In this document: piece after piece, positions 27,011-28,010 of the stretch
Position numbering within the stretch: the first letter of the stretch is position 1
How the letters are laid out: every line of letters begins with the position of its first letter
Source of the DNA: [Pantoea] beijingensis
Lineage (GTDB): Bacteria; Pseudomonadota; Gammaproteobacteria; Enterobacterales; Enterobacteriaceae
Direction of reading: 5' to 3'
Length of the DNA stretch: 64,000 nt
NCBI RefSeq assembly: GCF_022647505.1
Contig: NZ_CP071409.1
Span: forward strand, 3,658,001-3,722,000
Program-made: the position numbers and the translations under genes
Notes under the pieces: generated by a model
What the model saw: only the letters and a program-made list of their open reading frames with translations
Databases searched by the model: none
What the model was told of the DNA's origin: nothing

Positions 27011-27121
27011 GAAAAGCAGATCTTTATTGCGTAGCCCTCCGCAAAAATGATTACAACTCACTGTTTATAAACCTAAAACACTCCTGTACTTTTTCTTAAT
27101 CGATTATTATTTTGGACAACA

Positions 27122-27151
27122 ACGCAGTGTTAACAACCGTCAACACTGCGT
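27122..27151. promoter_or_regulatory. Perfect inverted repeat before the HicA-like/HTH gene pair
   Basis: ACGCAGTGTT and AACACTGCGT are exact complements around a 10-base spacer, centred about 40 bases before the first gene of the pair. The arms are one helical turn apart or two turns centre to centre, as expected for an autoregulator's operator. Confidence 0.7.
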
Positions 27152-27177
27152 CTATTATCACAACACCAGGGATGGTG

Positions 27178-27408
27178 ATGAAAAAACATCCAAACAAAGC
27201 CATACAATCGGCTATCGAGTATGCCATTGCACATGGCTGGCACTTCCATCCCAGTAGCGGCCATGCATTTGGTCGGCAGGTATGTGGCTATCCTGAGCAT
27301 CCGCTACATCAGATGAGCATCTGGTCAACGCTACGCGTACCGGAGAACCATGCTAAGCAAATCCGATGCAAAATAGATAGCTGCCTGGTCAATCGCGGTA
27401 AAAGATAA
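27178..27408 (+). CDS. Small HicA-like protein, candidate toxin
   Basis: A 76-residue protein. The frame runs from 27112 (TTG), but ATG at 27178 has an AGGGA site at good spacing and matches the conserved core. The layout 'IAHGWHFHPSSGHAFGRQVC' followed by 'SIWSTLRVPENHAKQIRCKI' is like the HicA double-stranded-RNA-binding fold, with glycine-histidine in the position of the HicA catalytic histidine. It is followed after 12 bases by a helix-turn-helix gene with a strong ribosome site. Similar two-gene units occur in many bacteria without a described role. Toxin activity is inferred, not shown. Confidence 0.7.
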   Translation: MKKHPNKAIQSAIEYAIAHGWHFHPSSGHAFGRQVCGYPEHPLHQMSIWSTLRVPENHAKQIRCKIDSCLVNRGKR

Positions 27409-27420
27409 ACAGGAGGGAAC

Positions 27421-27954
27421 ATGAATCTTTATCATTTTATCCTGACCTTAGACGGGGTCACGTCGCAAACGCCGGGTCTGGAAGACACCCTGTTTGAAAG
27501 CGGCTGTGACGACGCGCTGGTCTGTTTTTACGGTCAATCGGTCTATCTTGAATTCGATCGTGAAAGCGCTAACTTTCGCCAGGCGGTATTAAGCGCGATT
27601 GCCGATATTGAATCAGCAACCATTAACGCAAAAGTATTATCGGTGGATTCGATTCTGGTGGGGCTGAGCGATATTGCTGCGGCAGCAAATCTGTCCCGTC
27701 AGGCTATCACTATGTTGAAAGATGGCACCCGTGGAACAGGCGATTTTCCTTCTCCCCTTCAGCGGCTAAAAGGCACATCGCCTCTATGGAGCTGGGCCAG
27801 CGTCGCGGACTGGCTTTATCGCAAAGGTAAAATCACCCGCGAACTGGCGATCAATGCCCAGGAGATGGAAGAGATCAATTTAGCGCTACAATTGCGCACA
27901 CTCAAAGCGCACAGCAACGTGGAAGCACTGATACAGCAACTGGCCCGCGATTGA
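27421..27954 (+). CDS. Helix-turn-helix protein, candidate antitoxin/autoregulator of the pair
   Basis: A 177-residue protein. The first 75 residues form an alpha/beta domain ('GLEDTLFESGCDDALVCFYG' region). A helix-turn-helix follows ('VGLSDIAAAANLSRQAITML') with a wing-like 'GDFPSPLQRLKGTSPLWSWA', and the tail is helical. An AGGAGGGAAC site gives strong translation, as common for antitoxins. It probably binds the palindrome at 27122-27151 and controls the pair. The domain order differs from HicB. Confidence 0.7.
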   Translation: MNLYHFILTLDGVTSQTPGLEDTLFESGCDDALVCFYGQSVYLEFDRESANFRQAVLSAIADIESATINAKVLSVDSILVGLSDIAAAANLSRQAITMLKDGTRGTGDFPSPLQRLKGTSPLWSWASVADWLYRKGKITRELAINAQEMEEINLALQLRTLKAHSNVEALIQQLARD

Positions 27955-27977: not shown

Positions 27978-28010
27978 CATCAGCCTGAGAGGAAAGCTCT
28001 CAGGCTGATG
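27978..28010. terminator. Perfect 14-bp hairpin between convergent operons
   Basis: CATCAGCCTGAGAG and CTCTCAGGCTGATG form a perfect stem with a GAAAG loop. There is no T run. It separates the toxin-antitoxin-like pair from the sugar ABC operon and may end either transcript. Confidence 0.6.

Follow-up and report, generated by a model that had tools for sequence, protein, structure and literature searches.

Layout of the locus and match to a catalogued gene pair

The window, by which we mean the whole 64,000-nucleotide stretch of [Pantoea] beijingensis DNA analysed here, carries two adjacent forward-strand genes behind an inverted repeat, placed between a gene of the SbmA/BacA family and a convergently oriented operon for an ABC ATPase, a PfkB-type kinase and a permease. 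The two genes are called below the toxin and the partner, after the roles that we propose for them. Positions are counted from the first letter of the window.

27122-27151, no strand assigned: operator-like inverted repeat, ACGCAGTGTTAAC-AACC-GTCAACACTGCGT, with the core GTTAAC-N4-GTCAAC at 27129-27144
27130-27158, plus strand: predicted sigma-70 promoter, TTAACA-17-TATTAT, by consensus match; its -35 box lies within the repeat
27178-27408, plus strand: predicted HicA-like toxin gene, 76 aa, ATG at 27178; matches PDC-M06A at E 2.4e-18; modelled as alpha-beta-beta-beta-alpha; conserved H29
27409-27420: gap of 12 nt between toxin gene and partner gene
27411-27416, plus strand: AGGAGG ribosome-binding site of the partner gene, four bases 5' of its ATG
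27421-27954, plus strand: proposed antitoxin/autorepressor gene (the partner), 177 aa; matches PDC-M06B at E 4.4e-33
27421-27648, plus strand: partner N-terminal domain, residues 1-76, modelled as beta-alpha-beta-beta-alpha-beta; proposed toxin-neutralising module
27649-27837, plus strand: partner AlpA-like helix-turn-helix (HTH), residues 77-139, from the model and an HHalign probability of 96% to AlpA proteins
27978-28010, no strand assigned: 14-bp stem-loop, terminator-like on the minus strand by consensus scan only, in the interval that separates the pair from the convergent ABC-transporter gene

The earlier note on this DNA had described a 76-residue protein followed after 12 bases by an HTH gene with a very strong ribosome site, with a perfect 10-bp-arm inverted repeat ahead of them, and all of these elements are present; the repeat has perfect 10-nt arms around a 10-nt loop, and taking a spacer of 4 nt instead extends the arms to 13 nt at 92% complementarity. 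An alternative TTG start lies in the toxin frame at 27112, and the ATG at 27178 is the start common to the relatives. Across the family, the edge of the partner's ribosome site over that of the toxin is small (mean match 4.70 versus 4.38 of 6).

The suggestion that this is an undescribed system, in turn, does not hold. The two adjacent genes match PDC-M06A and PDC-M06B of PADLOC-DB 2.0.0, each protein agreeing with the models of its own gene and with no difference found in the features checked, an assignment that reflects model E-values rather than PADLOC's own calling thresholds. Moreover, the homologues on Cyrano, a phage-plasmid of Escherichia coli LF82, are already annotated as 'HicA toxin protein' and 'putative antitoxin HicB'. 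The PADLOC rows for PDC-M06 give no function, PDC standing for 'phage defence candidate' according to the accessible part of PMC11514479. A search of the accessible texts of the indexed literature, bioRxiv preprints not included, found 'PDC-M06' in no paper and no paper on the pair besides the one on Cyrano.

The Cyrano pair is 53-54% identical to that of the window and the counterpart on SSU5 48-53%, both in the same gene order; in the SSU5 records the partner is called AlpA-like or an excisionase and the toxin a hypothetical protein. The two differ from the window in their site, since there the pair lies between recombination and replication genes of the phage-plasmid, on the opposite strand. 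Among the Cyrano genes tabulated as transcribed above local background in the accessible part of PMC9928086, the partner has the value 14 and the toxin 30.

Co-inheritance, one-way decay and mobility

The earlier note had treated the two genes as one unit, and their co-inheritance bears this out. Among 295 genomes of the family, the partner occurs in 56 and the toxin profile in 52, and every toxin locus stands beside a partner (54/54, from 55 match rows in which one locus was split in two). In the reverse direction, 54 of 59 partner loci stand beside a toxin, the remaining ones being G223:C15, G287, G311, G238 and a fragment in G129; some of these may be misses, because no more than 19 candidates per genome were scored when the toxin was searched for. 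The same association is seen in the viral loci seeded with the toxin, all of which have a partner (41/41), and in the fetched loci, a redundant set seeded with either gene, where 157 of the 170 partner frames follow closely behind a toxin frame in the same orientation and none of the 161 toxin-profile frames lacks a partner-profile frame. More broadly, the partner was found in 21 of 37 genus genomes, some of the matches being weak or fragmentary, and the PDC-M06B model in 33 of 398 genomes of a phylum sample, the weakest of these being short HTH-only matches.

Where the pair decays, it appears to do so in one direction. After identical partners had been removed, 105 distinct full-length partners remained, of which 95 have a full toxin, six a broken or partial toxin (L109, L020, L042, L035, L086 and L079; broken frames may be sequencing errors) and four no toxin (L007, L013, L106 and L076). 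The first toxin residues are still readable ahead of the partner in L007. In this distinct set, full toxins were never seen next to a partner fragment, and two partners reduced to the N-terminal domain lie directly behind a full toxin, both without the repeat (L164 and L174). The other cases comprise five N-domain matches and three fragments without a recognised toxin, and one locus excluded as too near its end. Two loci counted as toxin-less, L132 and L133, have an upstream 89-aa frame with a toxin-like stretch at its end.

Several of these unusual loci are worth recording in their own right. In L132:625-1129 and L133:3739-4243, the partner behind the 89-aa frame consists of the N-domain only, and that frame is toxin-like at its C-terminus and not in its core. 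L164:3998-4877 reads like a possible three-gene version, composed of a toxin, an 85-aa N-domain-only partner and a separate 98-aa HTH-like gene. In L131:3755-4213, a 152-aa protein with an N-domain-like end has a Nudix-like gene as its neighbour and no recognised toxin upstream of it, and in L013:6001-7173 two genes resembling a ParD/ParE pair come after the toxin-less partner.

The direction of loss bears on which of the two proteins is the active one. A reversal of roles, with the larger protein active and the small one its inhibitor or co-repressor, is compatible with the fact that neither protein has a measured activity. Under such a reversal one would hardly expect the full-length partner to be kept with a broken or missing small gene, as it is in 10 of the 105 cases, or partner fragments beside a full small gene to be missing altogether. 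Antitoxins, furthermore, often have an HTH and a matching repeat, and it is the larger protein of this pair that has the HTH, with a repeat to match it. We consider a reversal extremely improbable. The pair has adjacent co-inherited genes, loss in one direction and a palindrome at the promoter, the features that one would look for, at the level of sequence, in a type II toxin-antitoxin operon.

The pair was also said to look portable, and its occurrence on plasmids, on phage-plasmids and at patchy chromosomal sites supports this. Of 50,697 phage records, 3 carry homologues (SSU5 twice, and Cyrano), and a toxin homologue is present in 232 of 72,556 plasmid records, 219 of which are typed as non-mobilizable. 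DNA-level matches were found in 24 of 5,426 E. coli genomes, all of them on plasmids and none covering over 80% of the query. On the chromosomes, we fetched 30 sbmA loci out of the 34 genus genomes with sbmA, and within the stretch fetched the pair lies behind sbmA in four of them (the window's own genome, L279, L286 and L288). Other species are nearer to the window's in SbmA identity, and two of these (G005 and G033) have the pair elsewhere. The remaining fetched loci vary downstream of sbmA among themselves, so that simple insertion into an empty site is not demonstrable there.

Some further records call for comment. Toxin homologues were counted also on plasmids of Picosynechococcus, Sulfitobacter and Paracoccus. 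A Klebsiella aerogenes 'plasmid' record (LR134127.1; L294) has pta, folX and hisJQMP around the pair and looks chromosomal. A contig labelled Chryseobacterium (L009) encodes exactly the toxin found in L056, which belongs to the window's family; the assembly of that contig is likely contaminated or mislabelled.

Inverted repeat, predicted promoter and recognition helix

The repeat had been likened to the operator of an autoregulated type II system, and its recurrence before relatives, its overlap with the predicted -35 box and its agreement with the partner's recognition helix make it operator-like on sequence grounds. In the 150 nt upstream of the window pair, a palindrome this good arose in none of 60 dinucleotide shuffles. 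Stronger evidence than this single shuffle test is that the repeat core recurs in a similar position ahead of relatives that have diverged. Within 150 nt upstream of 99 distinct toxins, the exact form GTTGAC-N4-GTCAAC occurs in 56 and the exact form GTTGTC-N4-GACAAC in 20, together 76/99, compared with 50 and 8 exact matches, respectively, per 1980 control windows, which were drawn from the same loci and in part overlie the true site. These exact sites start 39 to 67 nt before the toxin start, with one case at 79. Taken singly, only 33 of the 99 upstream palindromes are better than their own shuffles at 0.05, and for this reason we place the weight of the operator evidence on recurrence. The window's own repeat has one mismatch to the commonest form, GTTGAC-N4-GTCAAC, and the pattern GTTRAC-N4-GTYAAC occurs once in the 4.1-Mb genome, namely in the repeat of the pair itself.

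The two forms of the repeat seem to be placed differently with respect to the putative promoter. In the GTTGAC group, 21 of 65 cases have a -10-like hexamer that lies 15 to 19 nt past the left half and reaches a score of 5 or 6 of 6, compared with 56 of 1700 shuffles. The same placement reaches this score in none of the 20 members of the GTTGTC group. In this second group the right half reads TTGACA in 17/20, and the hexamer after the right half scores at least 4 in 15/20 (shuffles, 191/1000), so that the right half may serve as the -35 box.

The form of the repeat also tracks the recognition helix of the partner. Among the 22 partners with an RK-type helix (as in SRQNMRKLM), 20 have the exact GTTGTC form and two neither exact form (L078 and L080), while exact GTTGTC was found before none of the 77 partners without an RK-type helix. 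The 65 partners with a mostly RQA-type helix (as in SRQAIAMLKDG) have exact GTTGAC in 54 cases and neither form in 11, the window being one of these 11. Ten partners have an RAA- or KKG-type helix: two of them (L127 and L088) show exact GTTGAC and eight neither form, L128 among the eight reading GTTTAC and L165 and L166 having a GTAGAC-like site. Both HTH-less partners likewise have neither exact form. The helix-site agreement is imperfect, with GTTGAC beside another helix in L127 and L088 and neither form in 23 of 99 loci, and the covariation, which would point to an operator variant that follows its reader, is confounded with shared ancestry.

One branch of toxins (L029-L034, L065-L075 and L129) has a Cys-rich insert, around CRCGEFC, that by eye resembles a zinc knuckle, and its operator variant is GTTGTC. 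The two genes overlap by 22 nt in L029-L035, L067 and L071.

Predicted folds, kinship to HicA and HicB, and proposed mechanism

The SGH...NHAKQI layout that had been noticed in the first protein is conserved across its relatives, residues H4, H29, C36, A59 and C69 being invariant in sets of 43 and 32 sequences, with C36 going down to at least 90% in the most diverse set of 31. Structure prediction of both proteins had been proposed as a check, and each was modelled singly. The AlphaFold2 model of the toxin, from 32 sequences, has helices at 7-18 and 55-74 and strands at 21-25, 30-36 and 45-49 (pLDDT 85.7), which is the alpha-beta-beta-beta-alpha order that Gerdes gives for HicA (PMC10865869, accessible part), the likeness being one of element order rather than a superposition on a solved HicA. 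That of the partner, from 43 sequences, shows the beta-alpha-beta-beta-alpha-beta N-domain, then the HTH with a short strand, and then two further helices at residues 140-176 (pLDDT 93.0).

At the profile level, the toxin aligned to 38 HicA sequences with an HHalign probability of 20% and a score of 21.8, above all of 100 and all of 250 column shuffles (maximum 17.7). In this weak alignment GW and SH are in register, and the (G)SH motif falls before strand 2. The histidine of this motif is catalytic in HicA. A comparison with 10 HicA sequences gave 12%, and the profiles of HicB and AlpA gave under 1%. Pfam HicA_toxin (PF07927), in turn, matched neither the window protein nor any of 31 diverse toxins at E up to 1, nor anything else in the window's genome. 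The earlier claim that the first protein is HicA-like is thus supported, kinship with HicA being suggested by predicted element order and by a weak profile match that has the conserved histidine in register.

Other searches added little. Pfam and NCBIfam scans gave no matches for either window protein and weak, scattered ones for the 31 toxins; a match to the RuBisCO small chain in seven of these (best E 0.0031) was judged to be due to chance. The toxin matches phrog_5923, which is labelled unknown. Sequence searches against solved structures returned no credible relative of either protein, apart from a weak AlpA match for the partner.

The partner's HTH aligns to AlpA (PF05930) proteins with an HHalign score of 52.9, compared with a maximum of 15.4 in 100 shuffles, and single partners match PF05930 weakly (5/29 at E up to 1). 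The likeness to these regulators is confined to this C-terminal domain: the AlpA proteins that we fetched are mostly about 60 to 100 aa long, whereas the window's HTH is fused behind another domain and lies beside a toxin-like gene. The partner also matches phrog_2620, 'excisionase and transcriptional regulator', a label that recurs on one SSU5 record. We set aside the reading of the partner as an excisionase or global regulator because no integrase lies among the scanned neighbours and the genome holds a single site.

The same label, together with the weak HicA homology of the first protein, could also fit a regulator that accompanies a small protein not toxic by itself. For this there is a precedent in the HicA-related Shi of ICEclc, which, according to the accessible part of PMC6812849, leaves growth unimpaired when expressed alone and arrests it only together with ParA. 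Yet no parA or integrase gene was found in the scan of seven neighbours of the pair in the window, nor is one annotated next to it in SSU5 and Cyrano, and toxin loci without a partner were not seen in the family genomes or the fetched loci. The repeat being unique in the genome, no other target of this form is evident for the partner. An arrangement like that of Shi therefore strikes us as improbable.

Whether the partner is a HicB is the closer question. Its N-domain aligned to HicB with an HHalign probability of only 2.5% and a score of 16.7, which was matched by just 1 of 100 and 1 of 250 column shuffles, over a beta-beta-alpha stretch common to both. No Pfam HicB model matched the window partner, and HicB is absent from the 25 listed of the 26 Pfam families matched by 29 partners, which are weak matches to general HTH families. 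The pair resembles HicAB Classes 3 and 4 of Gerdes 2024 (PMC10865869, accessible part) in having the toxin first and an HTH antitoxin second; it differs from them in the predicted element order of the antitoxin's N-domain, in the AlpA-like HTH, and in a toxin with conserved H4, C36 and C69 and no Pfam HicA match. Among the 14 classes in the Fig. 2 legend of that paper, as far as its accessible text goes, no such partner is named. The earlier statement that the partner differs from HicB is supported as regards the predicted element order of the N-domain and the Pfam models, while the part of it that concerned gene order is not, the toxin-first arrangement being that of Classes 3 and 4.

These likenesses would also fit a strongly diverged HicAB, the partner then being a distant HicB that gained a strand and a helix at its N terminus and had its HTH exchanged, in a Class 3-like hicAB operon. 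The shared order, the similar sizes, the palindromic promoter repeat, the label chosen by the Cyrano annotators and the few shuffles that equal the N-domain score speak for it; the very low N-domain probability, the AlpA-like HTH and the missing HicB family speak against it, and we regard it as unlikely. Because neither the HicA nor the HicB models of Pfam are matched, we classify the pair as HicA-like and place it in PDC-M06 rather than in HicAB.

Taken together, we think that the pair is probably a type II toxin-antitoxin operon with a HicA-like toxin and an antitoxin not recognisable as HicB. A HicAB review (PMC11594946, accessible part) provides the background for this comparison. Judging from its predicted element order and the conserved histidine in the HicA register, the 76-aa protein would be a HicA-like RNase toxin. 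The 177-aa protein would neutralise it through the N-terminal domain, as suggested by the relatives in which the partner beside the toxin consists of that domain alone. The partner, probably as a dimer, would sit on GTTRAC-N4-GTCAAC via its AlpA-like HTH, cover the -35 box and repress its own promoter, in keeping with the site, the overlap and the helix-site agreement seen in the sequences. Loss of the antitoxin, whether through loss of the element or through phage shut-off of host expression, would then free the toxin and stop growth. Counting against a toxin-antitoxin pair are the HHalign probability to HicA of only 20%, the Shi precedent and the small ribosome-site advantage.

Since the pair is found on SSU5-like phage-plasmids as well as on chromosomes, we infer that its benefit is most likely maintenance of the element or exclusion of other phages. 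A role in defence may be suggested by the PADLOC listing and by analogy with HicA systems, for which Gerdes proposes such a role (PMC10865869, accessible part). DefensePredictor includes a validated system with a HicA domain, which from the accessible part of PMC13092281 is not identifiable as this pair or another.

It is tempting to go further and to speculate, with considerable doubt, that the family is a separate toxin-antitoxin lineage. Its toxin would be a HicA-topology RNase with its own His/Cys set (H4, H29, C36 and C69, and in one branch the Cys-rich, zinc-knuckle-like insert), its antitoxin would couple an N-domain of ferredoxin-like order with an HTH of AlpA type whose operator code is evolving, and the whole, spread by phage-plasmids, would exclude competing phages.

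If the toxin-antitoxin reading is true, HicA-like toxins would have a second kind of antitoxin, and PDC-M06, so far listed and unexplained, would gain a concrete, testable mechanism that assigns toxicity to one gene, neutralisation to one domain and recognition to one DNA site. The operator variants with their matching recognition-helix variants would, in addition, form a ready set for studying how AlpA-like HTH domains change their specificity.
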